Part shown: positions 31,275-56,813 of the stretch, in pieces
Layout: each line of letters opens with the position of its first letter
How positions within the stretch are numbered: position 1 is the stretch's first letter
NCBI RefSeq assembly: GCF_023821985.2
Contig: NZ_CP098805.1
Span: 496,001-560,000 of the forward strand
Direction: 5' to 3'
DNA length: 64,000 nucleotides
Source of the DNA: Dyadobacter chenhuakuii
GTDB lineage: Bacteria > Bacteroidota > Bacteroidia > Cytophagales > Spirosomataceae
The notes under the pieces: generated by a model
Database searches by the model: none
What the model saw: only the letters and a program-made list of their open reading frames with translations
What the model was told of the DNA's origin: nothing
Position numbers and translations under genes: made by a program

Positions 31275-31382
31275 AGCTTGTCAGGGCGGGGAGCGGAAGC
31301 AACCCGCAACTATTATTTTTAGTTGATTATTATTACATTCAAAATCTCACTCATGCCGCCCAGGCATCAGAGGCCCGCTTAT

Positions 31383-32237
31383 ATGGATCACATTTCAAAA
31401 TACCTGACCAGGGAGATCAAGCTTTCCAGCTATGACGACAAGCTTTTTAAATCGGACCTTATGTTCGATGATCATATGCTGATTTGGTTTATTTCAGGTG
31501 AAACCAAAATCATACAGGCAGACACAACCTACTACTTTAAAACAGGGGACATTTTTCTGATTCCCAGAAATGAGCTGGCGACCATTGTAAATTATCCCAA
31601 AAACGGACAACCGCACAAAACAGTGGTTATGCATTTGTCCAAAGAGCGGCTCAAACGATTTTACGAAAAGATTGAGATTAATAAAACGAGCGGCCCGCGG
31701 CGGAAGATTTTCAGCTTTACCAATCACCCGTTTCTGGAAAGTTGCCTGGCTTCCTTGGTCCCTTACTTCGATGTTACCGGCCAGTTTCCCGAAAGTATTG
31801 CCACCTTGAAAATTACCGAAGCCATTACCATTTTGAGGGAAATCGACAAAACGGTCGACAGCGTGCTCGCAAACTTCGATGATCCAGGAAAAATCGACCT
31901 GATTGATTTTATGCAGCGCAATTTTATGTTCAATATGCCGATGGAAAAATGGGGTTATCTGACGGGCCGCAGTTTGTCGACATTCAACCGGGATTTCAGA
32001 AAGTTATTTCAGGTAACTCCGCAAAAGTGGCTGACGGATAAAAGGCTCGAACTGGCACATTATCAATTGGCAGAAAAAAAGAAAAAACCCACAGAAGTGT
32101 ATCTGGAAGTTGGTTTTGAAGATCTATCTCATTTTTCTTTTGCATTCAAAAAGAAATACGGAATTGCACCTACGCAGTTGCTGCATGTGACACATACCCC
32201 TGCCTCTTCTTATCGTCCCGACATTGTTACTTCATGA
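31383..32237 (+). CDS. AraC-family transcriptional regulator
   Basis: 284 residues from MDHISKYLTREIKLSSYDDK; an ATG ten codons upstream (31353) is an alternative. The N-terminal half is a cupin-like sensor (LIWFISGETKIIQADTTYYF, KTGDIFLIPRNEL). The C-terminal two-helix-turn-helix domain includes GYLTGRSLSTFNRDFRKLFQ and YLEVGFEDLSHFSFAFKKKY. It probably senses a small molecule and may regulate the adjacent SDR gene. Its 3' end overlaps the convergent HTCS gene by 28 bases. Confidence 0.9.
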   Translation: MDHISKYLTREIKLSSYDDKLFKSDLMFDDHMLIWFISGETKIIQADTTYYFKTGDIFLIPRNELATIVNYPKNGQPHKTVVMHLSKERLKRFYEKIEINKTSGPRRKIFSFTNHPFLESCLASLVPYFDVTGQFPESIATLKITEAITILREIDKTVDSVLANFDDPGKIDLIDFMQRNFMFNMPMEKWGYLTGRSLSTFNRDFRKLFQVTPQKWLTDKRLELAHYQLAEKKKKPTEVYLEVGFEDLSHFSFAFKKKYGIAPTQLLHVTHTPASSYRPDIVTS

Positions 32238-35200
32238 TGCCTCCGCTTTTTTGTCTTGTATTCCGTCGGCAGCATGTTGAACTTGGCTTTGAAGGATTTT
32301 GCAAAATAATTCGGCGCGGTAAAACCCGTCATGTAGGAGATCTGTGAAATGCTTAAATCACTGTTTTCCAATAGTAATGCTGCCTTTTCAAGTTTGATTG
32401 AGCGGATGAACTCGATGGGCGTTTGTCCGCTCATTTCCAGGACCTTGCTGTATAATGTTCCCCGGCTCATGCCGACGTGCTTGCTGAGATTTTCCACGCT
32501 AAGCTGGGCAGTGTGCAGGTTGTCCTCAATGTAAGACAGCATGTCTTTCAGCAGTTTTTCCTGGCTGGATTCCATCTGCGGTGCTTCACCCGACACTTGG
32601 ATGTGCCGCGAGTAAACACCTTTGAGAAGCCTGTTAAGCAGGATCAGATTGTTGATCTTGGCATTTAATATTTCAAAATTAAAGGGTTTGGTCAGATAAT
32701 CGTTCGCTCCGGAATTGAGGCCTTCCAGCTGCTGCTGCTCACCTGTGGATGCCGTCAGAAGAATGATAGGGATGTGTTTGGTGCGCTTGTCGGACTTGAT
32801 TTTCTGGCTCAAAGCAATGCCGTCCATTTCGGGCATGGCCACGTCGCTTACAATCAGTTCGGGATGGTGGCTGAGCGTTTTTTGCCAGCCTTCTTTGCCG
32901 TTGCTCGCTTCTATAACATGATAGAAGGGCATCAGGCTTTCTTTCAGATAATGTCTGAATTCGTCGTTGTCCTCAATGATCAGCACATTGGACGGATCTT
33001 CCAGATTGGCCTTTTCCGATTTAGCGAAGCCACTTTCCGTTTCATTCAGTGTTTTAGGCGTTGAGGCAGGCTGTTCGGTCACAGGAATAAGTTGTTCTGC
33101 AATCGGCAGTTCCACTGTAAACGTGCTGCCCGCGCCCGGCTGACTTACAACATTTATTTTTCCCTGGTGCAACTGCACAAACTCGCGCACAATGGACAAG
33201 CCGATGCCGCTGCCCTGGTTCAGAACCGTCAGGTCCGTATCGCTCTGGAAAAAGCGGTCAAAGATCTTTTCGTGCTGATCTTCTGCAATGCCTATTCCGT
33301 TATCCGAAATGTTGATTTGAAGCCAGTGCTTTCCTTCAACATCCGTTTGCTGCTGAACATTTAAAGCCACTTCGCCGCCTTTTGGAGTGAATTTAAATGC
33401 ATTGGAAAGCAGGTTAAACAAAACCCGTTCGAGCTTGTCCGCATCGAAATCCATCGTAAGCTGATCCGGCGCACTATCAATTTTGAACTGAATCCCCTTA
33501 CGGATGGAAAGATCACTAAACTGGTCGCAGGTGTCTTTGATAAACAGAATAATGTCACGGCGTTTCAGGTCGAGCTTTACTTCCTGTTCCTGCATATTTT
33601 TAAAATCCAGCAACTGGTCCACAAGGTTCAGCAGCCTTTTCGCGTTGCGCTTAATGGCATTAACCGGCGGATGCAGCTCGGTGGATCTGGTCTTGACGAG
33701 CAGGTTGTCAACAGGGGCAAGGATAAGCGAGATCGGCGTCCTGAACTCGTGGCTCAGATTGGTCAGAAACTTGATTTTCATCCGGTCCAGTTCCTGCGCA
33801 CGTTCCACTTCCGCACGCTGCTGCTGCTCTTTAAATTGCCGTTGCAGCTTTTGAATGCCGCGCCGCCGCATATAGTATACAATCGCGAATGGCGCAAGAA
33901 TGTAAAAAATGTAAGCGTAAATGGTCAGGTAAAAAGGTGGTTTCACGATCACCGCCACCGACTTGGTCTGCGGACCCCAGTTAATGCCGTCACCGCTGGC
34001 CTGCACTTCAAAAACGTATTTGCCCGGGCTCAGATTTGTATAACTGGCAAAGTTGGTAAGCCCTGTTTCGTTCCATTCCGACTGCATGCCCACCAGCCGG
34101 TGCCGGTAATGCATTTGTTTTGGATTGGTATAATCGAGGGCGGCAAAACCGATTGAAAAATTCTGTTTGTAATCCAGGCTAATGGTCCTGGCAACGGTAA
34201 TATCAGCATCAATAAAGTTCGAATCGGCGGGTGTAATGCTGCGATTACCAATTTTCAGGTCTTTTAAAATGATCGGCGGAATCCGTTTGCTGTCAGGCAA
34301 ACTCCGTGTATCGATGTAGTTAAACCCAGCAATGCCACCGAAAAAAAGCGTGTTATCAGCCGCGCGGATGCCCGAGCCAAGCACGAATGTCCGGTCCTGA
34401 ATGCCGTTATAGGAAGTGTAGTTGATGAATTTTTTATTTTTCAAATCAAGATAGCTGATTCCCTGGTTGGTACTGACCCAAATCCGCCCCTGCGCATCTT
34501 CCAGCACTTTGTTGACAATGTTGCTGGCGAGCCCTTCCTTTGACCCATAAGTTGAAAACTTTCTGGTACGCGGGTTGTATAACGCCAGCCCTTCACCCGA
34601 TGTGCCCGCCCAGATGTTCCCTCTGCTGTCTTCCAGAAGAGAAAAAACAATGTTGCTGGGCAGTTCGCTGCTTTGCTTGTCCAGCAACAGCGTTTTCTTC
34701 GTCACCGGATCATACACAGCAATGCCGGTGCCGTGCGACGCCACCCAGAGTTTGCCTTTACTGTCCAGCATGAGATCACGGATATAGCCGTTCAAGGGAA
34801 TGCTGCGCTGCAAAACGGGAACCCCCGCATCGTGAAATCTGGTAAACCGTTTCGTTGCAGGATCAAACAAATGCACACCGCCACCATTCGTGCCCACCCA
34901 CAATTGGCCAGACTTATCTTTTTCCAGGCAGAAAATCTCGTTGTTACTCAGGGTGGATGAATCTTTTCCCCTCATATATTGGGTATAAGCGCCCGTTTTA
35001 GGGTTAAACTGAAAAAGCCCGTCCTGAAAGGTCCCGATCCAAAGCTCGTTGTCCGCAACCAGTTCCAGCGTAAGGATAGCAAGCCCGGACGCTGCATTCT
35101 TGTTCTTTGGATTAATTGGAAATTTCCGGAACAAATTCGTTTGCCGGTTATAAACATTTAACCCGCCGCCGTCGGTGCCTACAAAGAGCTCGCCCGATCC

Positions 35201-36322
35201 GGTTTCCGCGAAGGATGTCACAAATGGCGCGCTCAATCCGTATGGGTCATTCACATCTGACCGCTTCAAGCCAAAGATCGCCAGGTTTTTATCGTATTTA
35301 TTTACCCCGCCCTTATAAGTGCCAAGCCAGCAAATGCCCTCATTATCTATGAGTATACTCCGCACCGATTTGTTGCTTAAACTAAACTGCGTCCTTGCAT
35401 CCGGGCCATAGCGCGTAATGTTGCCGCTTCGGGTATCCAGCATATTCAAGCCGGCATCCGTGCATATCCATAGTTGATAGGCGTTTTCCCAGGTAACAGC
35501 AAACACCATATTGGTGCTCAGGGAATTCTTGTTGTTAGGGTCATATTTAAAATGCTTGATAATCTGCCCATTCGCATTGAGTTTGAACACTCCGCTGAAT
35601 GTGGCGGCCCAAATGTTCCCCTCGCGGTCTTCAACAATAGACTTCACCGTGCGCGCACCGGCTTCGTCGGGCAGTGATTGCAGGTAATTGATATATTCCT
35701 CGCTTTTATCAGCCGGATCCATTTTGAACAATCCATTCCTGGATCCGATCCAAACCCTTTTTTTGCTGTCTATCGCAATGCCGAGGATCATTCCTTTGGA
35801 AATTTGGTCAGGCATGTTGGGCCTGGATGCGAATGTGCTGATCTGATGGCTTTCCGGGTCCACATTGATCAGCCCTGCTGTGGTGCCGACCCAAAGTTTT
35901 CCCGTGGCATCGCTGGTGATGCTCGTTACGCTATGGGGGGACGGAATGATCTCGAATGAATCTTTTCTTCTGTTATAAAGGTGCAATCCGCCTTCGATCG
36001 TGCCAACCCAGATCCGGCCTTTGCGGTCCTGATGCAGGCAGGAAATATCATTGGATCTTAGTGAGGTTGAATCCTTCTTATCATGCCGGTAAACGATGAC
36101 ATCCGTGCCGTCGAACCTGCTCAAACCATCGTCCGTTCCGAACCACATCAGTCCATACTGATCTTTCAGAATGGCCGTCACAGTATTTGATGATAACCCG
36201 TCCGTTGATGTCAGCGACGTAAACTTGGGCTCAGCAGGCTGCGCCCATGCTGTAAATGTCGCTGCACAGCATGCGATTATCAGGCAGATAAAACGGAATG
36301 TGAGAAGAATCTCTGAACGCAT
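32210..36322 (-). CDS. Hybrid two-component system (HTCS) sensor-regulator of the xylan PUL
   Basis: 1370 residues, full HTCS length. A signal-like N-terminus is followed by about 12-14 Reg_prop beta-propeller blades to residue ~690 (repeating patterns such as LMWFGTDDGLSRFDG and RIWVGTIEGGLHLYN), a Y_Y_Y domain (~700-790), and a membrane helix at about 798-818. The kinase follows: phospho-acceptor His near 856 (FLTNLSHEFRTPISLI), ATPase with DNGIGIAEDQHEKIF. A receiver has Asp near 1159 (IVSDVAMPEMDG), and an AraC DNA-binding domain occupies ~1265-1365. It should bind xylan oligosaccharides in the periplasm and activate the divergent susC operon. A 21-bp-spaced direct repeat lies in the shared upstream region. 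Confidence 0.96.
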   Translation of the reverse strand: MRSEILLTFRFICLIIACCAATFTAWAQPAEPKFTSLTSTDGLSSNTVTAILKDQYGLMWFGTDDGLSRFDGTDVIVYRHDKKDSTSLRSNDISCLHQDRKGRIWVGTIEGGLHLYNRRKDSFEIIPSPHSVTSITSDATGKLWVGTTAGLINVDPESHQISTFASRPNMPDQISKGMILGIAIDSKKRVWIGSRNGLFKMDPADKSEEYINYLQSLPDEAGARTVKSIVEDREGNIWAATFSGVFKLNANGQIIKHFKYDPNNKNSLSTNMVFAVTWENAYQLWICTDAGLNMLDTRSGNITRYGPDARTQFSLSNKSVRSILIDNEGICWLGTYKGGVNKYDKNLAIFGLKRSDVNDPYGLSAPFVTSFAETGSGELFVGTDGGGLNVYNRQTNLFRKFPINPKNKNAASGLAILTLELVADNELWIGTFQDGLFQFNPKTGAYTQYMRGKDSSTLSNNEIFCLEKDKSGQLWVGTNGGGVHLFDPATKRFTRFHDAGVPVLQRSIPLNGYIRDLMLDSKGKLWVASHGTGIAVYDPVTKKTLLLDKQSSELPSNIVFSLLEDSRGNIWAGTSGEGLALYNPRTRKFSTYGSKEGLASNIVNKVLEDAQGRIWVSTNQGISYLDLKNKKFINYTSYNGIQDRTFVLGSGIRAADNTLFFGGIAGFNYIDTRSLPDSKRIPPIILKDLKIGNRSITPADSNFIDADITVARTISLDYKQNFSIGFAALDYTNPKQMHYRHRLVGMQSEWNETGLTNFASYTNLSPGKYVFEVQASGDGINWGPQTKSVAVIVKPPFYLTIYAYIFYILAPFAIVYYMRRRGIQKLQRQFKEQQQRAEVERAQELDRMKIKFLTNLSHEFRTPISLILAPVDNLLVKTRSTELHPPVNAIKRNAKRLLNLVDQLLDFKNMQEQEVKLDLKRRDIILFIKDTCDQFSDLSIRKGIQFKIDSAPDQLTMDFDADKLERVLFNLLSNAFKFTPKGGEVALNVQQQTDVEGKHWLQINISDNGIGIAEDQHEKIFDRFFQSDTDLTVLNQGSGIGLSIVREFVQLHQGKINVVSQPGAGSTFTVELPIAEQLIPVTEQPASTPKTLNETESGFAKSEKANLEDPSNVLIIEDNDEFRHYLKESLMPFYHVIEASNGKEGWQKTLSHHPELIVSDVAMPEMDGIALSQKIKSDKRTKHIPIILLTASTGEQQQLEGLNSGANDYLTKPFNFEILNAKINNLILLNRLLKGVYSRHIQVSGEAPQMESSQEKLLKDMLSYIEDNLHTAQLSVENLSKHVGMSRGTLYSKVLEMSGQTPIEFIRSIKLEKAALLLENSDLSISQISYMTGFTAPNYFAKSFKAKFNMLPTEYKTKKRRHHEVTMSGR

Positions 36323-36412
36323 TGATATGATAGGGTTAAAAACAGAGCCCGAGTCGAAAGTTATCCCAAAAATGCAAGTTTGTCCCAGAATCGGGCATTT
36401 TTTTAGCCCTTT

Positions 36413-36444
36413 TGAACAATTGTATCCTTAATATGAACAAATGT
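36413..36444. promoter_or_regulatory. Candidate HTCS operator: 11-bp direct repeat with 21-bp period
   Basis: TGAACAATTGT (36413-36423) and TGAACAAATGT (36434-36444) match at 10 of 11 bases and are exactly two helical turns apart, the layout expected for an AraC-type DNA-binding domain. The second copy ends 26 bases before the -7-like element, where an activator would contact RNA polymerase. Confidence 0.6.
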
Positions 36445-36470
36445 GCTCACAGCAGGCTGCCTTGCTGCGC

Positions 36471-36478
36471 TACTTTTG
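36471..36478 (+). promoter_or_regulatory. Probable -7 element of the first susC operon
   Basis: TACTTTTG matches TAnnTTTG. No TTTG is found at the -33 position, as expected for an activator-dependent promoter. The leader would be about 155 nt. Confidence 0.45.
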
Positions 36479-36638
36479 TCGACAATAAATCAAATAATAT
36501 CTGGAAAAAGTGATGCACTGAAAATGACGACAAAGCCAAAGTTACACCCAAATTAAATATTGTCAAATTGACACTTCCATAACAACACCAAGACGACCAC
36601 ATGATTCAATCTAATTTAAACATCAAATCATACACAAA

Positions 36639-39600
36639 ATGCATGAACGTTTATTAAGCAATAACATGCTCGCCAGGATACTGGGTTTTTCTGGCCTACC
36701 TATTCTGCTGCTCGGCAGCATTTCCATGGATGCAGTTGCCGGTAATGCAGCATGGGCAGATTACGGCAACCGGCATCGTTCAGCTCTGGCAGCGGACATT
36801 GAAGTTACCGGAAAAGTAACCGGCCCGGACGGTGAGGCGCTGCCTGGCGCCAATGTGCTCATCAAGTCCACAACAAGAGGCACCAGCGCCGATCAGGATG
36901 GAAATTTCCGGCTCAGCGTCCCGGATGCGAATGCCGTTCTGGTGTTTTCGCTCGTGGGTTACGCGCCCAAGGAAGTGGTTGTAGGAACGCAGCAGATCAT
37001 TAACGTGACTTTGGCGGTCGACAATAAGACGCTCGAAGAAGTAGTTGTCGTGGGTTATGGCGTTCAGCGCAAGCGGGACGTGACGGGCTCGGTGGTTTCA
37101 GTGAGCGAAAGCACATTGAAAGAAGTGCCTGCGCCCAACCTCGTAAGCCAGTTGAAGGGCCGTGCGGCGGGAGTCTCGATTATTAGCAACGGAAGCACAC
37201 CAGGCTCTCAGGGCCAGATCCGGATCCGCGGAAACCGTACATTAACCACCAGCTCAGGTTCCAGCGATGGCTTGGATGGTCCGCTGGTGGTGGTGGACGG
37301 GATCCCGTTCGGTGGCTTGAATGACATTAACCCGGATGATATTCTAAGTCTGGAAGTTTTGAAAGATGCGTCAGCAACAGCGATTTATGGCTCGCGCGGA
37401 GCGGGTGGCGTAATCCTGGTAACAACCAAAAGAGGAAAAGTCGGCAAGCCTGTTTTCAGCTACGACGGTTACCACGGACAAACGCAGGTGATGGGCAAAT
37501 TCAATGTCATGAATGGACAGGAATATGCACAATTCAAAGCCGATGCAGCCAAATATAACCGCACAGCGCCGGGCACATCGGGTTATTTGCTGACCCAGAA
37601 AGAGCAGGAAGCACTTGACAATGGTGTTTCAACAGACTGGCAGGATTTGATTTACAAACCCGGCTTCATGACCAACCATCAGCTGGGTGTGCAGGGCGGC
37701 GTTGAAAACACGCAGTATTCACTCGGATTGGGTTACTTCAACGAAACCGGGATCATTCCGAACCAGAGTTTCCAGCGTTTGAACATTCGCGCAACCATTG
37801 ACCAGAAGATTGGCAAAAACGTCAAAATAGGTCTGAATACATTAAATACGCTGACTTACACCAACACGCCGGGCGGCGGGGGCGTGCCGGGCGGGCTGGT
37901 GCGACTGACTCCATTGGCATCGCCCTACAATGCAGACGGAACCGTAAATAATTTTCCGGCCGAAGGTTCTATTGATGCTGCTATCGTGAGTCCGCTGACC
38001 ATTATGTCCAAAAAGGAATCGGCCCTGGGCCGCACGCGATCATTGCGGACATTCAACAGCCTTTATGCGGAAGTTAATATTTTACCAGGATTGAAATACC
38101 GTTTCAATGCAGGTCTGAATTTCAGTCAGTCCAACCTGAATAATTACAACGGCCCGCTGACCTATTTCAACACGGCCACGACGCAAGCCGGATCCACCGC
38201 CGAGATCAGCAACACCGAATATTGGGACGTGAACTTGCAGCATTTGCTTTATTTTGATAAAACAGTTGCAGACAAGCATAAGCTGGGTTTCACTGCGCTT
38301 TACGAATACACCAAAAACCACTCGCTGGGAAGCCGCTTTACGGTAACCGGTGTGCCTGCCGATTATATCAAAACGTCCAACTTCTCGCTCGCTGCGGGCC
38401 AGCCGGTCGCGCCGTCGGATTTTGGAAACTCGTTTTCAGAGACTGGGTTGCTGTCTTACATGGGAAGGCTTAATTATAGCTATGCAGACAAATATTTGCT
38501 GACATTGACGCTGCGCCGCGATGGTTCGTCCACCTTATCTCCGGCAAATCAATATTTCAATTATCCCGCGATCGGTTTAGGCTGGAATGTGGTGGAAGAA
38601 GGTTTTATGAAATCGGCTCCGTTCATTTCCAATCTTAAACTACGCGGCGGCTGGGGGATTTCCGGCAACCGGAATGTAGGCGCATACTCGACGTTAGGTG
38701 CATTATCCGCGGGTTATTACAACTTTGGATTGGGTACGGCTGGTCAGCAGCTTGCTTACACTGTGACAAGTTTGCCTTCTAGCGACCTGAGCTGGCAGTC
38801 GACCTCGCAGCTGGACATTGGTGTTGATTTTGGTTTGTTCAACAACCGCATTACGGGTTCTGTGGACTGGTATCACCAGAAAACCAAAGACATTCTCCTC
38901 TCCGTACCGCTGCCGCCAAGCAATGGTGCAGGCTCAACATTGAAAAATTTGGGTAAAACAGAAGGCAAAGGATTGGAAGTGGCTGCCACTTTTGAAATTG
39001 TCAGAAAACCAAAAGGGTTCAATTGGAGCATTGACGCAACTTATTTCTTTAACCGGGAAAAAATCACGCAGCTGACCACGCCCGACGAAAAGTCCAATCT
39101 GGGTGCGGGATGGTTTGTAGGACAGCCGCTTTCCGTGATTTTTGATTATAAAAAATTAGGAATATGGCAGACCGCAGACGCAGAAAACGGCACATTAGCG
39201 CAGCAAACATCACCTGTTCAGTTCGCCGGACAGATCAGGGTGGAAGATTTAAACGGCGATAACAAGATCGACGCCAATGACCGCCAGATCCTGGGTAATT
39301 TCCAGCCTAAATGGGAGGGTGGATTAACCAGCCGTTTCAGCTTCAAAAACTTTGATGCATCGGTGGTAACCTATGCGAGAATGGGCATGAAAGTGCTTGT
39401 CCCTTACTTAACGGGTAACTCCACAGGTTCAGGCGGTTTCGCATTCTTTAACCAAAGCCGTGTAAATCAGGTAAAAACCGATTACTGGACCGAAACTAAC
39501 CCCACGAACGCATTCCCGGCTCCCGACGCAAGCGGTGCTGTGGCCAACTTCGGCTCAACATTAGGCTACTATGACGGCTCATTCATCAAATGCCGCAGCA

Positions 39601-39878
39601 TCAACCTCGGTTACACATTTGAGAGCAATGTTATCAAGAAAATCGGCGCGACTTCGGCGAGAATTTACGTCAACCTCACCAACCCGTTCATCATTTACGC
39701 ACCGTTGGTGAAAGACGACCTGGCGATTGATCCCGAAGGAAACAGCTATGCAACAGGCCAGTCAACGCTGAACCCGCAAGGCGCCAGCGACCGTGGCGCA
39801 CCGGAACGCCAGATCTCGGTCAACCTGAATTCTCCACCGGTAAGACAATTCACTGTGGGCGTAAACCTTAAATTCTAA
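36639..39878 (+). CDS. SusC/RagA-family TonB-dependent outer-membrane transporter (PUL 1)
   Basis: 1079 residues. A signal region (about 1-40) is followed by a carboxypeptidase-regulatory-like beta-sandwich (EVTGKVTGPDGEALPGANVL), the SusC hallmark LEEVVVVGYGVQRKRDVTGS near 135-155, the plug domain (VVVDGIPFGGLNDINPDDIL, LKDASATAIYGSRGAGGVIL) and a ~22-strand barrel ending VGVNLKF. With SusD it imports oligosaccharides across the outer membrane, here most likely xylo-oligosaccharides given the downstream enzymes. First gene of the operon, eight bases before susD. Confidence 0.96.
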   Translation: MHERLLSNNMLARILGFSGLPILLLGSISMDAVAGNAAWADYGNRHRSALAADIEVTGKVTGPDGEALPGANVLIKSTTRGTSADQDGNFRLSVPDANAVLVFSLVGYAPKEVVVGTQQIINVTLAVDNKTLEEVVVVGYGVQRKRDVTGSVVSVSESTLKEVPAPNLVSQLKGRAAGVSIISNGSTPGSQGQIRIRGNRTLTTSSGSSDGLDGPLVVVDGIPFGGLNDINPDDILSLEVLKDASATAIYGSRGAGGVILVTTKRGKVGKPVFSYDGYHGQTQVMGKFNVMNGQEYAQFKADAAKYNRTAPGTSGYLLTQKEQEALDNGVSTDWQDLIYKPGFMTNHQLGVQGGVENTQYSLGLGYFNETGIIPNQSFQRLNIRATIDQKIGKNVKIGLNTLNTLTYTNTPGGGGVPGGLVRLTPLASPYNADGTVNNFPAEGSIDAAIVSPLTIMSKKESALGRTRSLRTFNSLYAEVNILPGLKYRFNAGLNFSQSNLNNYNGPLTYFNTATTQAGSTAEISNTEYWDVNLQHLLYFDKTVADKHKLGFTALYEYTKNHSLGSRFTVTGVPADYIKTSNFSLAAGQPVAPSDFGNSFSETGLLSYMGRLNYSYADKYLLTLTLRRDGSSTLSPANQYFNYPAIGLGWNVVEEGFMKSAPFISNLKLRGGWGISGNRNVGAYSTLGALSAGYYNFGLGTAGQQLAYTVTSLPSSDLSWQSTSQLDIGVDFGLFNNRITGSVDWYHQKTKDILLSVPLPPSNGAGSTLKNLGKTEGKGLEVAATFEIVRKPKGFNWSIDATYFFNREKITQLTTPDEKSNLGAGWFVGQPLSVIFDYKKLGIWQTADAENGTLAQQTSPVQFAGQIRVEDLNGDNKIDANDRQILGNFQPKWEGGLTSRFSFKNFDASVVTYARMGMKVLVPYLTGNSTGSGGFAFFNQSRVNQVKTDYWTETNPTNAFPAPDASGAVANFGSTLGYYDGSFIKCRSINLGYTFESNVIKKIGATSARIYVNLTNPFIIYAPLVKDDLAIDPEGNSYATGQSTLNPQGASDRGAPERQISVNLNSPPVRQFTVGVNLKF

Positions 39879-39885
39879 TCCGACT

Positions 39886-41700
39886 ATGAAATCCATAAAA
39901 AACATAATAACAGCAGCCTTAATCGCCTCATTGAGTACGGGTTGCGAAAAGGTGCTCGAAGAACATCCGCAATCTCAGATCGTTCCTACCTATTTCAACA
40001 GCCCGGCGGGTGTGCTGGGCGGCATCGCCGGGGTTTACAATGACATCCGCGGTCAGTGGGGAACCGAAGGTTTCACGGTCGAAATGCAGGCCGGGACCGA
40101 CGAATTCATCCAGGGAGTGAATGGGGGCGGCGGTCCTGCTTACACTTACAATGGTCTCAACAGCAGCAACTTCGGCTCTGCCTGGGGCGTTGCTTTTCAG
40201 GATATTAATACATTGAATGGCGTATTGCAATACGGCGCGACCATTGATCTGCCGGAAGCTACGCGCAAGCAATATCTGGCGCAGGCGAAGTTTTTGCGGG
40301 CATTCTGGTATTTCTATCTCGTACAGACCTGGGGCGATGTTCCCTTGCATACCGAGTTTATCACCGTGCCTTCGCAAGCCGCATCACGCCAGCCGGCAGC
40401 GGACGTGTATGCGCTCATCATCCAGGATTTGACAGAAGCAGCCGCCGACTTGCCTAACCAGCCAACGGCACCTTTCCTGGGCAAAGCCGCCACCAAGCCC
40501 GTAGCGCAACTCTTGCTCGCAAAAGCATATCTGACACGCGGCTGGCTGAACAACACGGCTTCCGATTTTACACAAGCCGCAGCGATCTGCGACGACATTA
40601 TTGCCAAAAAAGCGGACTACGGGCTGGATCTCTGGCAGGATTACGGCGATGCATTCGTGCCTGCCAATGATTATGGCAAAGAAACGATGTTCGTCAGTGA
40701 CCACGTACTGGACCCGAAATACGGCTATTACCAGGTCGGCGGACAGGCTGGGGGTGGAGCAGCGCAAAATTTGAGCCCATGGTTTACTAACTGGAATTAC
40801 CCGAATAACAGCGGCATCAATTCGATTAAAAATGCAGCAGGCGCTTTTGTAAATAATGGCACTTCTGGCATGATCCGGGATTCCTATTATGGCCGTCCGT
40901 ATGTTCGGATGCGTCCGAATTCTGATAAAATCGCCAACGGGCCTCGTGCAGGTAAGAACTATTTTCTGGATCAGGCATTTACCAACCGCAAGGTGGATTC
41001 ACGTTATGCCAATTCCTTTTACACGGTTTATATTTCAAATACTGCGGTGAAAAATGAGGCAAATACTGCCAATAACCTCCGCGGGATTTCCTATACGACG
41101 GTTCCCGGCGTGGACACGGCCGTTTGGCTGCCCGATTATGAAGTGCCGGGCGCGCCGCAGTTTGTGGGAACGAGGCCATTCAAGGGCATTGTGGTGCCGC
41201 CAAGTCTTTGGAACAACGGTATTTTCCCTGCTTTGAAAAAATTCATGGATCCAAGCCGTGGCGCCAATTTTAATGATCCTTCCACACGCCCGGCTGTTCT
41301 GTACCGCTTTTCAGATGTGTATATGACGGGCGCCGAGGCCTATTTCAAGGCAGGTAACAACGCCAAAGCAGCCGCATTGATCAATGTGGTAAGACAGCGC
41401 GCCGCATTCCGCAAAGCAAATACAACGGCCGAAAATGCCGCCGCCGCAACCGCTATGACGATCACCGCAGCACAGGTTACGCTGGACTTTATTCTTGACG
41501 AACGCAGCCGTGAGTTTTTCGGCGAATGGCAGCGCTGGCATGATCTGGTGCGGACCCGCTCGCTCGTGCGCAGGGTGCAGGAGTGGAACCAGGAAGCAGC
41601 ACAATATGTGAAAGATTTCAATATGCTGCGCCCCATTCCGCAGTCGCAGATTGACCGGGTCGTAGAAGGTCCGAAGTTTCCGCAAAATTCCGGATATTGA
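39886..41700 (+). CDS. SusD/RagB-family surface glycan-binding lipoprotein (PUL 1)
   Basis: 604 residues. The lipobox LSTGC gives Cys20 as the acylated residue. The TPR-rich fold shows through QYLAQAKFLRAFWYFYLVQT, VAQLLLAKAYLTRGW, YMTGAEAYFKAGNNAKAAAL and the C-terminal FILDERSREFFGEWQRWHDL, LRPIPQSQIDRV. It should cap the adjacent SusC and bind xylan fragments at the cell surface. Cotranscribed: 7 bases from susC and 13 bases from the GH43 gene. Confidence 0.95.
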   Translation: MKSIKNIITAALIASLSTGCEKVLEEHPQSQIVPTYFNSPAGVLGGIAGVYNDIRGQWGTEGFTVEMQAGTDEFIQGVNGGGGPAYTYNGLNSSNFGSAWGVAFQDINTLNGVLQYGATIDLPEATRKQYLAQAKFLRAFWYFYLVQTWGDVPLHTEFITVPSQAASRQPAADVYALIIQDLTEAAADLPNQPTAPFLGKAATKPVAQLLLAKAYLTRGWLNNTASDFTQAAAICDDIIAKKADYGLDLWQDYGDAFVPANDYGKETMFVSDHVLDPKYGYYQVGGQAGGGAAQNLSPWFTNWNYPNNSGINSIKNAAGAFVNNGTSGMIRDSYYGRPYVRMRPNSDKIANGPRAGKNYFLDQAFTNRKVDSRYANSFYTVYISNTAVKNEANTANNLRGISYTTVPGVDTAVWLPDYEVPGAPQFVGTRPFKGIVVPPSLWNNGIFPALKKFMDPSRGANFNDPSTRPAVLYRFSDVYMTGAEAYFKAGNNAKAAALINVVRQRAAFRKANTTAENAAAATAMTITAAQVTLDFILDERSREFFGEWQRWHDLVRTRSLVRRVQEWNQEAAQYVKDFNMLRPIPQSQIDRVVEGPKFPQNSGY

Positions 41701-41713
41701 TAAAAAAAATTCA

Positions 41714-42772
41714 ATGATGATAAATCGTAATGCATTAGCAGTAATATCTGCGTCGTTGCTGGCCTTCGGTGGCCTCGGAATTCAAACCACTTTCGGGCAG
41801 GGAACCAGCATTAAACCGCTGGTCACCGACCTCTACACCGCCGATCCGTCGGCCCACGTTTTCAACGGGAAGATCTACATTTATCCATCCCACGACATTG
41901 AGGCCGATGTGCCGCAGGACGATGAGGGCGGGCACTTTCAAATGCGCGATTACCACGTTTATTCCATGGATAAGATCGGTGGTAAAGTAACCGACCACGG
42001 TGTGGCGCTGGATGTAAAAGATGTCCCCTGGGCCGGTAAGCAGATGTGGGCGCCTGACGCTGCATTCAAAAATGGCACCTATTACCTTTATTTTCCTGTC
42101 AAAGACAAGGAAGGCGTCTTCCGCATGGGTGTGGCCACCAGTAAATCACCAACTGGTCCGTTCAAGGCTGAGCCTCAGCCGATAAAAGAAAGTTACAGCA
42201 TCGATCCGGCCGTTTTTACAGACACGGACGGTAAAAGTTACATGTATCTGGGAGGGATCTGGGGCGGTCAGTTGCAGCGCTGGCATACAGGCACTTATAA
42301 CAAGAGCTTGATGACGGACCTGGGCAAAGGCCATGAAAATGAGCCCGCACTAAGCGCCAAGGTAGCAGCCATGAGCAATGATATGCTATCCTTCGCCGAG
42401 CCTTTGAAAGACGTTCAGATCCTGGATGAAAACGGGAAGCCGATCTTAGCGTCTGACACCAAACGCCGCTTTTTTGAAGGCGCCTGGATGCATAAATTCA
42501 ATGGTAAATATTATTTCTCCTATTCTACCGGCGATACACATTTGCTATGCTATGCCGAGGGCGACTCTCCTTATGGCCCATTCAAATACAAAGGTGTGAT
42601 TATGAATCCCGTAGAAGGCTGGACGACACATCATTCCATTGTTGAAGTCGAAGGCAAATGGTATATTTTCTATCACGATGCGGCGCTTTCAGGCAAAACG
42701 CATTTGCGCAATGTGAAGGTCAGGGAATTGCTAAGGGATGCCAGCGGGAACATTACAACCATCAATCCTTAA
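41714..42772 (+). CDS. GH43 glycosidase (arabinofuranosidase/xylosidase type)
   Basis: 352 residues with an N-terminal signal peptide ending near TTFGQG; starts MM, so ATG 41714 or 41717. The five-bladed propeller of GH43 has all three acids in place: base D44 (YTADPSAHVF), pKa modulator D164 (SYSIDPAVF) and acid E255 (RRFFEGAWMHK). A single catalytic domain fills the chain, with no accessory beta-sandwich. It probably removes arabinose from, or xylose at the ends of, imported xylan fragments; subfamily cannot be fixed by eye. Confidence 0.9.
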   Translation: MMINRNALAVISASLLAFGGLGIQTTFGQGTSIKPLVTDLYTADPSAHVFNGKIYIYPSHDIEADVPQDDEGGHFQMRDYHVYSMDKIGGKVTDHGVALDVKDVPWAGKQMWAPDAAFKNGTYYLYFPVKDKEGVFRMGVATSKSPTGPFKAEPQPIKESYSIDPAVFTDTDGKSYMYLGGIWGGQLQRWHTGTYNKSLMTDLGKGHENEPALSAKVAAMSNDMLSFAEPLKDVQILDENGKPILASDTKRRFFEGAWMHKFNGKYYFSYSTGDTHLLCYAEGDSPYGPFKYKGVIMNPVEGWTTHHSIVEVEGKWYIFYHDAALSGKTHLRNVKVRELLRDASGNITTINP

Positions 42773-42820
42773 CAAAGTAGGTGAACATTCCCTTTGGCTT
42801 ATTAAATAAAAAAACATCCT

Positions 42821-43909
42821 ATGCATATCGAGAGGCGTGATTTCATATCAACATTGACACTGGCCGGCGCGGCCACATTATTCACAGGAAATTCCCTTCT
42901 GGCCTCCACAAATCCCAAAAAGGATAAACTGGGCATTGCGCTGGTCGGCCTTGGCTATTACAGCACGGACTTGCTTGCGCCCGCGCTGCAGATGACGGAG
43001 AAATGTTACCTGGCCGGCATCGTTACAGGCACCCCATCCAAAGCCGAAACCTGGAAAGCCAAGTACAACATTCCCGACAAAAACATTTACAACTACAAAA
43101 ACTTCGACGATATCGCCAACAACCCGGATATCGACGTCGTGTATGTGGTTTTGCCGCCATCCATGCACAGGGAATTTGTGGTGCGTGCTGCCAAGGCGGG
43201 TAAGCATGTATTTTGTGAAAAACCAATGGCACCGTCCGTCGCAGATTGCGAAGCCATGATCCAGGCTTGCAAAGCCAATAAAGTAAAGCTCGCCATCGGT
43301 TATCGCTGCCAGCACGATCCGAACATCCAGGCCATTATGAAGATTGCCAAAGATCCTAAATTCGGGAAAGTGAAAATGGTGAGCAGTGCAGCGGGTTATT
43401 TTGATGCGCGGACCGATCATTGGAAACAAAAGAAAGCATTAGGCGGCGGCGTAATGGGCGATATGGGTGTATATGCATTGCAAGGCGCCAGGCTCGCCAC
43501 GGGAGAGGAGCCCATCAGTGTTTTCGCCCAGGCTTCCACAACCCGTCCCGACATTTATAAAGAAGTGGAAGAAACGATGATGTTCATGCTCGATTTCCCA
43601 AGCGGCGCCAAAGCATCCTGCCAGACAAGTTTTGGCATAAATATGAATTATCTGCAAGTGAATTATGAAAAAGGCTGGGCCAAGCTGGAACCGCAGTCGG
43701 GTTATAATGGCAATAAAGGCAGCTTGTCGGATGGGACAATCATCAATTTTCCTATCAAGAGTCAGCAGGCCAAACAAATGGATGAAGACTGCACTGCCCT
43801 GATGACCAATGCGGACCTTATCGCACCCGGCGAAGAAGGGCTGCGGGACATTCGTGTGGTAGAAGCGATCTATAAATCTGCTGCGAGCGGCAAAATGGTG
43901 AAAATCTGA
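42821..43909 (+). CDS. Gfo/Idh/MocA-family oxidoreductase with Tat-like signal
   Basis: 362 residues. The N-terminus IERRDFISTLTLAGAATLFT has the twin-arginine form (R5-R6) and a hydrophobic stretch, so export of a folded, cofactor-loaded enzyme is likely. The Rossmann domain (KLGIALVGLGYYSTDLLAPA) is followed by the family motif KHVFCEKPMAPSVADCEAM, with the catalytic Lys in EKP, and the C-terminal beta domain (GGGVMGDMGVYALQG). Relatives include glucose-fructose oxidoreductase-like enzymes. Its stop overlaps the GH95 start by one base (TGATG). A role on a sugar released by the PUL enzymes is inferred. Confidence 0.9.
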   Translation: MHIERRDFISTLTLAGAATLFTGNSLLASTNPKKDKLGIALVGLGYYSTDLLAPALQMTEKCYLAGIVTGTPSKAETWKAKYNIPDKNIYNYKNFDDIANNPDIDVVYVVLPPSMHREFVVRAAKAGKHVFCEKPMAPSVADCEAMIQACKANKVKLAIGYRCQHDPNIQAIMKIAKDPKFGKVKMVSSAAGYFDARTDHWKQKKALGGGVMGDMGVYALQGARLATGEEPISVFAQASTTRPDIYKEVEETMMFMLDFPSGAKASCQTSFGINMNYLQVNYEKGWAKLEPQSGYNGNKGSLSDGTIINFPIKSQQAKQMDEDCTALMTNADLIAPGEEGLRDIRVVEAIYKSAASGKMVKI

Positions 43910-46380
43910 TGCGTTATTTTTTGAAGGAAGTATTTTGTCTTTCGTTAATGGCAATAACGTTGACGGGTTATGCACAAACGCCCCGCGTGCAAAAGCTTTG
44001 GTATAAACAGCCTTCGGGCAAAACATGGGAAAATGCATTGCCTGTCGGAAACGGCAGGCAGGGCGCTATGGTGTATGGCAATGTGGTGAATGAAACGATT
44101 CAGCTCAATGAACATACATTATGGTCGGGCGGACCAAACCGGAATGATAATCCCGAGGCGCTGGCTGCATTGCCGGAAATCCGCAAGCTGATTTTTGAAA
44201 ATAAACAAAAAGAAGCAGAGAAGCTGGCCAACAAAGCCATCATAACTAAAAAATCACACGGACAAATGTTTCAGCCGCTGGGTGACTTGCGGCTGACATT
44301 TCCGGGTCATGATAATTTTACCAATTATTACAGAGAGCTCGACATTGAACGCGCCGTGGCCAAAACCACTTACCAGGTCGATGGCGTCAACTATACCCGT
44401 GAAGTCCTGGCTTCATTCCCCGACCGCGTGATCGTCATCCGCCTCACCGCCGACAAGCCGGGTAAGCTGGCATTCAATGCTTCCTATGCCTCTTTACACA
44501 AAACGAAATCCATTAAAACAAACACCGCAAAAGACCTTACCATTGCCGGCACGACGCAGGATCACGAGGGCGTGAAAGGTCAGGTACGTTTCAAAGGGAT
44601 TACCAGGATCAAAACCGAAGGCGGCAATGTGACCGCGAATGACACTGCACTCAATGTCGCCGGCGCTAATGCAGCGACCATTTACATTTCCATCGCGACC
44701 AATTTTAAGAACTACAATGACATCAGCGGCGACGAAAACGCGCTGGCTGCCGCTTACCTTGATAAAGCTGCATCCAAATCGTTCGCGAGCATGCTAAACC
44801 CGCACATTGCAGCTTATCAAAAATATTTCAAGCGCGTTAAATTCGATCTTGGCACAACAGAACTGGGTAACTTGCCGACGGATGAAAGACTGAAAAACTT
44901 CCGTAATGTCAATGATCCCGAACTGGTTACGCTTTACTATCAATATGGTCGTTACCTGTTGATTTCCAGCTCGCAACCGGGCGGTCAGCCTGCCAATTTG
45001 CAGGGGATTTGGAACAATAAAATGATGCCGCCATGGGATAGCAAATACACCATTAACATCAATGCGCAGATGAATTACTGGCCGGCTGAGCGTACCAACC
45101 TGAGCGAGCTGCATGAGCCATTTTTGAAAATGGTTGAAGAACTTTCGCAAACCGGAAAAGAAACGGCGAGCACCATGTACGGCGCAAGAGGCTGGATGGC
45201 GCATCACAATACGGATATCTGGCGCGCAACCGGCGCTATCGACGGTGCCTTCTGGGGCATGTGGATTGCAGGCGGCGGCTGGACGAGCCAGCATTTGTGG
45301 CAGCATTATCTGTATCAGGGCGACAAGGCGTATCTCGCCAAAATTTACCCGATCCTGAAAGGCGCAGCTACATTCTATGCCGACTTTTTGATTGAACACC
45401 CCAAATACAAATGGCTCGTCGTAAACCCCGGGAGCTCGCCCGAAAATGCCCCGGCCGCGCACGAAGGCTCCTCGCTGGATGCCGGAACGACAATGGATAA
45501 CCAGATCGCATTCGACGTTTTCAGCAGCACGATTCGTGCGGCCGAAATCCTGAAAAAAGACGCCGCATTCACCGATTCGCTTAGGCAAATGCGCAAGCGC
45601 CTACCGCCCATGCACGTAGGCCAGCACGGACAATTGCAGGAATGGCTCGACGATGTGGATGATCCCAACGATCATCATCGCCACGTTTCCCACCTGTACG
45701 GCCTGTTCCCATCCGACCAGATTTCAGCTTATCGCACACCCGAACTATTCTCCGCAGCACGCACCACTTTACTGCACCGCGGCGACGTTTCGACGGGTTG
45801 GAGCATGGGCTGGAAAGTGAACTGGTGGGCTCGTTTACAGGATGGTAACCACGCATTTACATTAATTAAAAGCCAGCTTTCACCATTAGGCACGTCCAAA
45901 GAAGGGGGAGGCACTTATAACAACCTCTTCGACGCCCACCCGCCATTCCAGATCGACGGCAACTTTGGCTGCACCTCGGGAATCACCGAAATGCTCATGC
46001 AAAGCGCAGACGGCTCGGTGCATTTACTTCCTGCATTACCCGACGTTTGGCAAGCCGGAAACATTGGCGGATTACTCGCGCAGGGCGGTTTTGAAGTGGT
46101 GAATATGGAATGGAAAGCAGGTAAGCTCACGAAAGTGGAGGTGAAATCGAAGCTCGGGGGAAACCTCCGGTTGCGGACGCCAAACACATTGAAAATGGCC
46201 AGCGGCAAGTCGCTAAGCGAAGCTTCGGGACAGAATGCCAATGCTTTTTACCAGGTTGAGCCGGTTGCCAGCGCCGTTTTGTCTCCTAAGGCTAATCTGT
46301 CCGCGCCGACGATCAAGGAAACATTCCTTTACGACATTCCTACACAGGCTGGGAAGTCTTATGTCTTTGTCGCTCAATAA
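43909..46380 (+). CDS. GH95 alpha-L-fucosidase / alpha-L-galactosidase
   Basis: 823 residues with a signal peptide (ends near TGYAQT). The opening matches GH95: ENALPVGNGRQGAMVYGNV, IQLNEHTLWSGGPNRND. The (alpha/alpha)6 domain has the catalytic Asn pair in NINAQMNYWPAERTNLSELH, the glutamate region NPGSSPENAP, and QIDGNFGCTSGITEMLMQS near the end. Known GH95 enzymes cleave alpha-1,2-L-fucose or alpha-L-galactose. Within this xylan locus, removal of L-galactose from highly branched (maize-type) glucuronoarabinoxylan is the better fit, an inference from characterised Bacteroides PULs. The start overlaps the Gfo/Idh stop. Confidence 0.93.
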   Translation: MRYFLKEVFCLSLMAITLTGYAQTPRVQKLWYKQPSGKTWENALPVGNGRQGAMVYGNVVNETIQLNEHTLWSGGPNRNDNPEALAALPEIRKLIFENKQKEAEKLANKAIITKKSHGQMFQPLGDLRLTFPGHDNFTNYYRELDIERAVAKTTYQVDGVNYTREVLASFPDRVIVIRLTADKPGKLAFNASYASLHKTKSIKTNTAKDLTIAGTTQDHEGVKGQVRFKGITRIKTEGGNVTANDTALNVAGANAATIYISIATNFKNYNDISGDENALAAAYLDKAASKSFASMLNPHIAAYQKYFKRVKFDLGTTELGNLPTDERLKNFRNVNDPELVTLYYQYGRYLLISSSQPGGQPANLQGIWNNKMMPPWDSKYTININAQMNYWPAERTNLSELHEPFLKMVEELSQTGKETASTMYGARGWMAHHNTDIWRATGAIDGAFWGMWIAGGGWTSQHLWQHYLYQGDKAYLAKIYPILKGAATFYADFLIEHPKYKWLVVNPGSSPENAPAAHEGSSLDAGTTMDNQIAFDVFSSTIRAAEILKKDAAFTDSLRQMRKRLPPMHVGQHGQLQEWLDDVDDPNDHHRHVSHLYGLFPSDQISAYRTPELFSAARTTLLHRGDVSTGWSMGWKVNWWARLQDGNHAFTLIKSQLSPLGTSKEGGGTYNNLFDAHPPFQIDGNFGCTSGITEMLMQSADGSVHLLPALPDVWQAGNIGGLLAQGGFEVVNMEWKAGKLTKVEVKSKLGGNLRLRTPNTLKMASGKSLSEASGQNANAFYQVEPVASAVLSPKANLSAPTIKETFLYDIPTQAGKSYVFVAQ

Positions 46381-46413
46381 GTTATTAGTATCAATGATTA
46401 AGGTCAAATTATA

Positions 46414-48093
46414 ATGATCAAACGATTTATTTCCGCCGCTTGTGTTGCGTGGCTTTGCATGGGACAGCTTGTGTCGGCCCAAACGACATTGGTTAACCCT
46501 ATCCTGACCGGTTTCTATCCCGATCCGAGCGTCGTGCAGGTTGGGGCGGATTACTATTTGGTGAACTCTACATTCTCCTACTTCCCCGGCATCCCGGTTT
46601 TTCACAGCAAGGATTTGAAAAACTGGAAGCAGATCGGCAATGTCATCGACCGGTCTTCACAAATGGATTTCATGGGTGAGAAGCTGACCAGAGGACTTTT
46701 TGCACCCGCGATCAGCCATCACAACGGCACATTTTACGTGACCTGCACGGACATTGACCATGACGGAAATTTTGTAGTTACGGCAAAAAATCCGGCTGGC
46801 CCGTGGAGTAACCCGATCCGCATTCCACAAGCCCGCGGCATCGATCCTTCCTTGTTTTTTGATGATGATAACAAAGCCTATATCATTTACAACAGCGACG
46901 CGCCGGACCGTAAACCCTTGTATTCCGGCCACAGAACGATCCGGATCTATGAGCTGGATCCTGCCACAATGAAGGTTGTGGGCGAGGAAAAACAGCTTGT
47001 GAATGGTGGTGTGGATCTAAGCAAAAAACCGGTCTGGATTGAAGCACCGCATATCATGAAGCGTAATGGCTGGTATTATCTGTACGCAGCCGAAGGCGGC
47101 ACGTCGGTGAACCATACGGAAGTTGTTTTCCGCAGCAAATCGGTGTGGGGGCCATTTGTGCCTTATGAAAATAACCCGATATTAACCCAAAAGGGATTAC
47201 CCGAAGACCGCAAAGATCCGATCACGTCAGCCGGTCACGCGCAGTTTGTAGACGGCCCGGATGGAAAAACCTACGCCATTTTCCTGGCCGTGCGCCCTTA
47301 TGAAGGCAATTATTACAACACCGGCCGCGAAACATTCATCGCGCCAGTGGAATGGAAAAACGACTGGCCGGTGATTAACCCTCCAACAAAAAATGTGGAT
47401 TACGAATACAAAGTCAATTATAAGGAAGTAAAACAAAAAGACGCGCTTCCGCAGGCTGGAAACTTCGCTTACACTTTAACATTTGAAAGCAAACTTGATC
47501 CCGCGCTGCTTTTCATGCGGACCATCGACAGCAGCTCCTTCGCTTTATCGAAGCAGAAAGGATTGACGATGAAGCTGAAACCCGAAACCATCATGGAACT
47601 GGGCAACCCTTCGTTTATCGGAAAACGCCAGCAGCATTTGTTCTGCACAACCGAAGTAGAACTCGATTTTTCTCCCAAATCAGAAAAAGAAAAAGCTGGC
47701 CTGAGCATTTTCCAGGATGAAGCACATTTCTATTTTTTGAGTAAATCAATAAAAGAAGGAAAGCCCATGGTGCAGCTTTTCAAAAGTGCTGCAACGGGAA
47801 AAGAAATGGAGTTAATGTCCGAAATACCCGTTCCGGATTCTTCCAGGCCGGTTAAGCTGCGCATTGTAGCAGAAGGCGACACTTACAGCTTCTATTTTTC
47901 CAAAGGCACTTCCTGGGAATTGCTCAAAGACAAAGTCGACGCCAAATTCCTGAGCACCGAAGTGGCCGGCGGCTTTATTGGCTGTTTGTTCGGCATGTAC
48001 GCAACCTCTTCGGGCGAGCCTACAACCAACTCCGCTTCATTCAAATACTTGAAATACAGCGGCAATGATCCTATTTTCAAAACAATTAAATAA
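46414..48093 (+). CDS. GH43 beta-xylosidase/arabinofuranosidase with C-terminal beta-sandwich
   Basis: 559 residues. A signal peptide (1-22, ending VSAQ) is followed by a five-bladed propeller with base D37 (GFYPDPSVVQ), modulator D144 (ARGIDPSLFF) and acid E210 (PVWIEAPHIM). Residues about 330-559 form a concanavalin-like sandwich (GNPSFIGKRQQHLF, AGLSIFQDEAHFYFLSKS), the usual GH43_C2 partner that completes the active site of beta-xylosidases. It probably trims xylose or arabinose in the periplasm. Different in architecture from the other GH43 in the operon, so the two are not simple duplicates. Confidence 0.92.
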   Translation: MIKRFISAACVAWLCMGQLVSAQTTLVNPILTGFYPDPSVVQVGADYYLVNSTFSYFPGIPVFHSKDLKNWKQIGNVIDRSSQMDFMGEKLTRGLFAPAISHHNGTFYVTCTDIDHDGNFVVTAKNPAGPWSNPIRIPQARGIDPSLFFDDDNKAYIIYNSDAPDRKPLYSGHRTIRIYELDPATMKVVGEEKQLVNGGVDLSKKPVWIEAPHIMKRNGWYYLYAAEGGTSVNHTEVVFRSKSVWGPFVPYENNPILTQKGLPEDRKDPITSAGHAQFVDGPDGKTYAIFLAVRPYEGNYYNTGRETFIAPVEWKNDWPVINPPTKNVDYEYKVNYKEVKQKDALPQAGNFAYTLTFESKLDPALLFMRTIDSSSFALSKQKGLTMKLKPETIMELGNPSFIGKRQQHLFCTTEVELDFSPKSEKEKAGLSIFQDEAHFYFLSKSIKEGKPMVQLFKSAATGKEMELMSEIPVPDSSRPVKLRIVAEGDTYSFYFSKGTSWELLKDKVDAKFLSTEVAGGFIGCLFGMYATSSGEPTTNSASFKYLKYSGNDPIFKTIK

Positions 48094-48102
48094 CTAGTGA
48101 AT

Positions 48103-48615
48103 ATGTCCACGTTTAAGAAGCTATTGACCGTTACAGCGCTGCTGATAGGCGGTTTTGTTCATGCGCAATCCAATTTTACCAGCAAATCCATCGGCGTAGG
48201 CGTCGTGGTAGCGGATATGCAGCGCTCCCTTGATTTTTATGTTAAAGGAATTGGCATGGTCAAAACCGGCAATTTTACAATTAATGCCGAATTCGGGAAA
48301 AGGGGCGGATTGACAGGCGGTGAAGCCGTTGAAGTCAACATTCTGAAACTCGAAAATGGCCCCGAAGGCACGGATTGGAAGCTGATGAGCTTTGGCAAAA
48401 AGGCCAGTCATCCCAAACCTAAATTCATCCAGGACGATACAGGTCCGCAGTACATTACCATTCAGGTCAAATCTTTAACGCCCATTATCGACAGGCTGAA
48501 AGCGCAAAATGTGACTTTCCTCGGCAGCACGCCCACCCCCCTGACCAAAGAATCGCACTTCGTCCTGGTCCAGGATCCGGATGGAACATTTGTGGAGCTG
48601 ATCGGCCCTATGTAA
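48103..48615 (+). CDS. Exported VOC-fold protein in the xylan PUL
   Basis: 170 residues from the ATG at 48103; a GTG two codons upstream is possible. A signal peptide (STFKKLLTVTALLIGGFVHA) is clear, then a glyoxalase/VOC fold: IGVGVVVADMQRSLDFYVKG, the ISVKSL-like strand ITIQVKSLTPIIDRLKAQNV, and FVLVQDPDGTFVELIGPM, with Glu as a likely metal ligand. VOC proteins bind divalent metals and catalyse isomerisation, epoxide opening or ring cleavage. Its presence between a GH43 and an esterase implies a periplasmic substrate, perhaps an aromatic (ferulate) or lactone; this is speculation. Confidence 0.85.
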   Translation: MSTFKKLLTVTALLIGGFVHAQSNFTSKSIGVGVVVADMQRSLDFYVKGIGMVKTGNFTINAEFGKRGGLTGGEAVEVNILKLENGPEGTDWKLMSFGKKASHPKPKFIQDDTGPQYITIQVKSLTPIIDRLKAQNVTFLGSTPTPLTKESHFVLVQDPDGTFVELIGPM

Positions 48616-48631
48616 TCGAAATCATCACTAA

Positions 48632-50587
<1,956 letters not shown>

Positions 50588-50611
50588 TCACTCATCAACA
50601 TTAACATTGTT

Positions 50612-51697: not shown

Positions 51698-51719
51698 AAG
51701 CTATTTCTCAATATATCCA

Positions 51720-54389: not shown

Positions 54390-54407
54390 TTATGTAAAAC
54401 ACCAATC

Positions 54408-56585: not shown

Positions 56586-56648
56586 ATCCCCGGCTGTTCA
56601 AAGAATCGCAAAAAATCATAAAAAATTCACATTTTTATTAAGTGTAGC

Positions 56649-56679
56649 CTTGACAAATATCTAAAAGATTATATATTTG
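56649..56679 (+). promoter_or_regulatory. Promoter of the second susC operon
   Basis: CTTG at 56649-56652, 19 bases, then TATATTTG at 56672-56679 (full -7 match). The start would be near 56683, giving a leader of about 130 nt. Confidence 0.6.
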
Positions 56680-56750
56680 TATATAGGATTGATTTGATTA
56701 AAAATTGGACTTAATCTGCGTTCCAAGTTGCGTTTAGCTGTCTTTTTTTG

Positions 56751-56766
56751 ATTCCCATCCGGGAAT
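56751..56766 (+). promoter_or_regulatory. Small hairpin in the second susC leader
   Basis: ATTCCC (56751-56756), loop ATCC, GGGAAT (56761-56766). It lies in the untranslated leader about 47 bases before the ATG. Confidence 0.35.
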
Positions 56767-56813
56767 ATTTTGTGCTGTTCAACAAGTGTCATCTTAACAT
56801 TTAAGTCGGATCT

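Follow-up and report, generated by a model that had tools for sequence, protein, structure and literature searches.

The window analysed here, the whole 64-kb stretch of DNA from position 496001 to 560000 of a 6.08-Mb Dyadobacter genome, carries a gene for an HTCS regulator of 1370 residues (32210–36322, minus strand) that is 98% identical to an HTCS of D. alkalitolerans. The protein comprises the Reg_prop, Y_Y_Y, HisKA, HATPase_c, Response_reg and HTH_18 domains in one chain, uniting the sensor, histidine kinase, receiver and AraC helix-turn-helix of an AraC-type HTCS, and is, as a candidate identified from sequence, the proposed reader of the operator described below. At the HIP position of the receiver we observed the motif KHIP, which is shared by 23 of 30 Dyadobacter relatives, with AHIP in all nine members of a paralogous group (HTCS 57–59% identical). 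In Bacteroides, serine or cysteine precedes HIP in 84% of the HTCSs (PMC11253607), and the published inhibitory contact may therefore differ in the Dyadobacter HTCS.

Divergently from the HTCS gene, a gene for a SusC-like TonB-dependent transporter (36639–39878, plus strand) opens the target operon, which presumably continues on the same strand from SusD to GH67 (39886–56585). The eleven genes from the start of susC (36639) to the end of the GH67 gene (56585) span approximately 20 kb with intergenic gaps below 50 bp; after susC, the order is SusD, GH43, a GFO/IDH/MocA oxidoreductase, GH95, a further GH43, a glyoxalase-like protein, an esterase, GH10, a SASA/polysaccharide deacetylase and GH67. 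Because GH10, GH67 and GH43 are all present, xylan is the probable substrate. A second susC/susD pair begins 228 bp after the GH67 gene, with its SusC gene at 56814. By eye, the interval between them (56586–56813) contains a promoter-like TTGACA...TATATTTG ahead of the second susC and no 21-bp repeat, so that this pair may escape direct control by the HTCS. The same interval includes a palindrome with one mismatch (56787–56799), which is identical in three of the four alignable relatives (from 20 regions fetched) and carries one mismatch more in the fourth.

A direct repeat and a lone -7 element

The predicted HTCS operator lies between the two divergent genes and consists of an upstream half-site, TGAACAATTGT (36413–36423, plus strand), and a downstream half-site, TGAACAAATGT (36434–36444), which together with its conserved extension GCTCAC (36434–36450, plus strand) adjoins the would-be -33 position. 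The 11-bp direct repeat with a 21-bp period named in the preliminary description is confirmed at 36413 and 36434: the two 11-mers differ at a single position (10/11 identical) and start 21 bp apart. After a spacer of 26 bp from the second 11-mer comes the -7 element TACTTTTG (36471–36478, plus strand), which conforms to TAnnTTTG.

Housekeeping promoters of Bacteroidetes carry a -33 element, TTTG, approximately 19–21 bp upstream of the -7 element. Here, only the -7 part of this TAnnTTTG/TTTG promoter (described in PMC7366714) is present, and the TTTG box at -33 is missing, which is consistent with dependence on an activator.

The pattern of the repeat pair matches once in the 64-kb window (none in 100 shuffles) and once in the whole 6.08-Mb genome (none for the reversed control). 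A 38-bp extended pattern allowing up to three mismatches likewise matches this site alone, so that the genome gave no other candidate site for this regulon. Among 5000 dinucleotide shuffles of the 316-bp region, a match of 10/11 or better arose at lag 21 in 18 and at any lag from 12 to 40 in 584; by the latter count, the repeat of a single genome is not beyond chance and is therefore not proof. In the window as a whole, seven positions start a match of 10/11 at lag 21, namely, the run 5160–5164, 36413 and 43246. Judged from this genome alone, the repeat thus provides modest, only suggestive evidence.

A set of 47 Dyadobacter loci whose HTCSs are more than 58% identical yielded 30 different intergenic sequences for comparison, that of the window among them; these sequences are related and hence not independent. 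Both half-sites are kept in all 30, with the best lag-21 pair fitting the consensus at 16–20 of 20 positions (two 11-mers, the eighth position of each half left free) and the two halves matching each other at 7–10 of 11 positions. The TAnnTTTG element starts exactly 58 bp from the start of the repeat in every sequence, and none of the 30 has TTTG 19–21 bp upstream of it, in agreement with the earlier claim of a -7 element without a -33 box. The share of columns at least 90% identical reaches 73% and 82% in the half-sites, 75% in the -7 element and every column of the six-base extension after the second half-site, whereas the 20-bp stretch from the extended operator to the -7 element has just one such column. 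Conservation is not confined to the repeat: upstream of it, 56% of 45 columns are also conserved. Using no matrix, the mean self-match across the 30 regions peaked at lag 21 (10.4 of 14), the other lags between 14 and 40 giving 8.3–9.2. The locus thus has a direct pair with a period of about 21 bp that is linked to an HTCS gene, precedes a susC/susD operon and is conserved among species bearing the HTCS. The search for such pairs at 21-bp spacing that the preliminary description had proposed returned the site once in this genome and in all 30 Dyadobacter sequences.

The same alignment reveals a conserved block just upstream of the HTCS start, TGCAAgTTTGTCnnnGAATCnGGCA (36368–36404, minus strand), which is possibly the HTCS promoter. 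An inverted weak half-site near 36371–36404, seen by eye only, was considered in connection with autoregulation.

Sites at distant loci and in other HTCS families

We applied a weight matrix built solely from the 30 Dyadobacter sequences to three regions near the HTCS gene, at 26 lags, in 61 non-Dyadobacter loci with HTCSs 40–49% identical to the present one (Chitinophaga, Niastella, Pedobacter, Sphingobacterium and others), among which loci from one clade are not independent. Lag 21 was the best in 34 of the 61 loci, with about two expected, and any other lag was the best in three at most. These 34 sites comprise 22 that are divergent from the HTCS gene, nine downstream of it and three before the HTCS itself; TAnnTTTG accompanies 20 of them, at the Dyadobacter distance in three cases and one bp closer in 17. 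Lag 21 was not favoured in the remaining 27 loci, ten of which belong to Sphingobacterium or Pedobacter. The matrix-free mean self-match over 60 non-Dyadobacter regions was 9.52 at lag 21 and between 8.4 and 8.95 at every other lag in the 14–40 range. A looser scan of whole loci placed the top match away from the HTCS promoter in many loci.

Within Dyadobacter, the site follows the HTCS. In four of the 17 named loci (L006, L007, L008 and L010), the repeat and the -7 element are retained in front of a SusC that is 40–43% identical to the one here. Moreover, a whole-locus matrix scan located the site opposite the HTCS in all six further Dyadobacter loci (HTCS 58–64% identical) and in all nine loci of the paralogous group, with scores of 24.7–41.4 across these 15; at the threshold of 15, four loci of another family also passed (15.8–17.6). 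An earlier lag scan had detected no lag-21 repeat in several of the 15, L159–L161, L164, L167 and L169 among them, apparently because the region searched was anchored on a misplaced ORF start; in that scan, the 57–59% group peaked at lag 20, and the 58–64% group was tied at lags 15, 21 and 30. Both paralogous loci checked for a target (L163 and L168) have a GH43 gene behind the same operator. In L168, the GH43 gene is followed by one for a GFO/IDH/MocA oxidoreductase, resembling genes 3–4 of the present operon under a regulator of their own.

Two other Dyadobacter HTCS families also have repeats with a 21-bp period. In the family L171–L188, 14 of 15 loci show the half-site CACATTTGTCC, the second copy of which varies more; in the family L195–L203, all eight loci show TTGAGAC twice. 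Since these half-sites were derived from the very loci in which they were counted, and the mean spectrum does not have lag 21 as its single maximum, we regard them as supporting rather than independent evidence. In the former family, TATyGGAAA is often found downstream instead of TAnnTTTG. The output domains of the HTCS families have different helix-turn-helix segments. No convincing 21-bp repeat was detected in four other Dyadobacter HTCS families, denoted in this analysis TNLT (six loci), KSPVD, ISGK and SPLE (three loci each), and three single Dyadobacter HTCS genes are likewise without a clear one.

Assignment of the repeat and a model of activation

Considered together, these comparisons indicate that the repeat is very probably the operator through which the divergently encoded HTCS switches on the susC-to-GH67 operon. 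The preliminary description had predicted an HTCS site controlling a xylan PUL, and this prediction gains support from the conservation in 30 of 30 Dyadobacter sequences, from the 34 distant loci (of 61) that prefer lag 21 and from the linkage to the HTCS gene. That the repeat is instead a functionless chance match, or reflects simple sequence similarity, would accord with the 584 of 5000 shuffles that produced a 10/11 match at some lag from 12 to 40, but appears extremely improbable when the pair and its fixed distance to the -7 element persist in all 30 Dyadobacter sequences while the spacer varies, and when lag 21 recurs as the preferred one in those 34 distant loci. A different owner of the repeat is conceivable next door, where a gene for a stand-alone AraC-family protein (31323–32237, plus strand) adjoins the 3' end of the HTCS gene; its product combines an AraC-type helix-turn-helix with an ExsA-type N-terminal domain, AraC proteins also use direct repeats, and 45 of 48 genomes hold some relative at E = 1e-40 or better. 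However, a close copy of this gene lies near the HTCS in just two of the 17 named Dyadobacter loci, which extend 6 kb past the HTCS, and a third has a relative of 34% identity instead, whereas the repeat is present in all 17. Furthermore, the best match found anywhere in genomes G023, G029, G030 and G040 is 36–40% identical, and the repeat is retained there (L125, L116, L127 and L126), so that ownership by the neighbouring AraC gene seems highly unlikely.

The remaining alternative keeps the repeat as an HTCS operator but has it act mainly on the HTCS gene, by autoregulation, or on both divergent genes. The conserved block at 36368–36404, between the repeat and the HTCS start, would suit such a role, as would the three of 34 distant sites that precede the HTCS gene in its own direction. 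Conversely, the -7 element at its fixed distance points away from the HTCS in all 30 Dyadobacter sequences, and nine of the 34 distant loci have the site downstream of the HTCS gene; we consider this alternative improbable and favour activation of the susC-to-GH67 operon.

Beyond the observed sites, their conservation, their fixed geometry and their linkage to the HTCS, we infer the ligand, phosphorylation, binding and activation as follows. Xylan-derived oligosaccharides in the periplasm would be sensed by the Reg_prop/Y_Y_Y domain, and the HTCS kinase would phosphorylate the fused receiver. An HTCS dimer would then place its two AraC-type output domains on the two TGAACAAwTGT half-sites, which, spaced by two helical turns, would lie on the same face of the DNA. 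With the second half-site ending at the would-be -33 box, the HTCS would take the place of this box and recruit the principal sigma factor to the -7 element TACTTTTG, turning on the operon from susC to GH67. An activator that substitutes for the -33 contact would be expected to show just these traits: half-sites on the same face, the second ending at the would-be -33 position, and a fixed distance to a solitary -7 element. The earlier suggestion that the geometry suits an AraC-type output domain fits well with the HTH_18 domain of the divergent HTCS and with the distance from the pair to the -7 element, which is the same in 30 of 30 Dyadobacter sequences.

A leader palindrome and the 21-bp design

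The presumed susC leader contains a conserved palindrome, TGTCAAATTGACA (36561–36573, no strand assigned), a candidate operator for a second regulator. In all 30 Dyadobacter sequences, TGTCAAnnTGACA occurs downstream of the -7 element, at distances of 51–153 bp, and the palindrome is therefore not tied to the promoter by spacing. Within 800–1000 bp of the HTCS gene, TGTCA-n1-4-TGACA is found in four of the six further loci (58–64%) and seven of the nine paralogous loci; it is absent from all 45 loci examined for other Dyadobacter regulator genes and from all 61 non-Dyadobacter loci. The arms are invariant among the 30 Dyadobacter sequences, so that compensatory pair changes cannot be counted, and a search of 36250–36750 against Rfam for an RNA element found nothing up to E = 1. 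Kept in every one of the 30, the palindrome suggests a second regulator. The early leader (36486–36514) is also conserved; many of the 30 Dyadobacter sequences share CTGGAAAAAgTgATG there, and it gave no Rfam match.

Exact TGTCANNNTGACA is found at two other sites in the genome, neither of them a xylose gene and one falling within a 515-aa open frame. The other, in TGTCATTTTGACA (L236:1501–1516), is located 2 bp before the start of a gene for a LON-domain protease in the same genome. Additional palindromes in genomes G005 and G009, approximately 6.3 kb downstream, were taken for coding variation, because the equivalent position in the window is the start of a coding region.

A published precedent for two signals at one operon is the arabinan operon BT0365-60, which is under dual control by HTCS_Ara-1 and the NrtR-family AraR (PMC3878776); a palindromic operator beside an HTCS site would give the same logic. 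The Dyadobacter locus differs from this precedent in that the palindrome is unlike the AraR probes, two sequences of which are printed in PMC4666351, and in that no NrtR-type gene lies near any listed match. On these grounds, we rejected AraR and, more generally, an NrtR-type XylR/AraR as the reader: the genome encodes four NrtR domains, and the closest of them is some 78 kb away from any listed match carrying one mismatch or none. We tentatively propose, as a possibility slightly short of even, a two-key switch of Dyadobacter xylan-type loci, in which the HTCS operator would read periplasmic oligosaccharide and the palindrome would be the operator of the second regulator, either a roadblock repressor or a catabolite sensor. 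Both elements would then accompany the HTCS when its target gene changes.

The arrangement of the repeat itself has clear antecedents in Bacteroides. The 16 HTCS motifs of B. thetaiotaomicron predicted in 2013 (Ravcheev et al.; PMC3878776) are direct repeats spaced 21 bp apart on average, located, as here, upstream of susC/susD-type operons, and similar HTCSs have similar motifs in Bacteroides. Compared with that work, the present site belongs to another branch of the phylum and the distance to the -7 element is measured here; a xylan HTCS is not among the regulons named in a passage of the table in PMC3878776. In EMSA, the response-regulator fragments of two HTCSs, BT4124 and BT4663, bound promoters carrying predicted sites, and DNA binding was repressed without phosphorylation (PMC11253607, mBio 2024). 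These cases share with ours the AraC-type output domain of an HTCS and a susCD promoter with a predicted site; their binding was demonstrated by EMSA, whereas that of the Dyadobacter HTCS is predicted. The statement in the preliminary description that few HTCS operators have been defined therefore needs a qualifier, with 16 predicted at 21 bp (PMC3878776) and two fragments bound in EMSA (PMC11253607). For Dyadobacter, we found no HTCS operator in print in the open-licence literature. Given that the 21-bp design was already predicted in 2013, the operator described here is well supported as a further example of a known design and not as a new mechanism.

These findings provide a concrete, mutable candidate operator for a probable xylan-sensing HTCS beyond the gut Bacteroides, with an almost fixed distance to the -7 element that has now been measured. 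The 21-bp design holds across this Dyadobacter HTCS group and in about half of the distant loci examined. Moreover, the seemingly different half-sites at equal spacing within one genus offer a natural set for matching residues of the output domain to bases.
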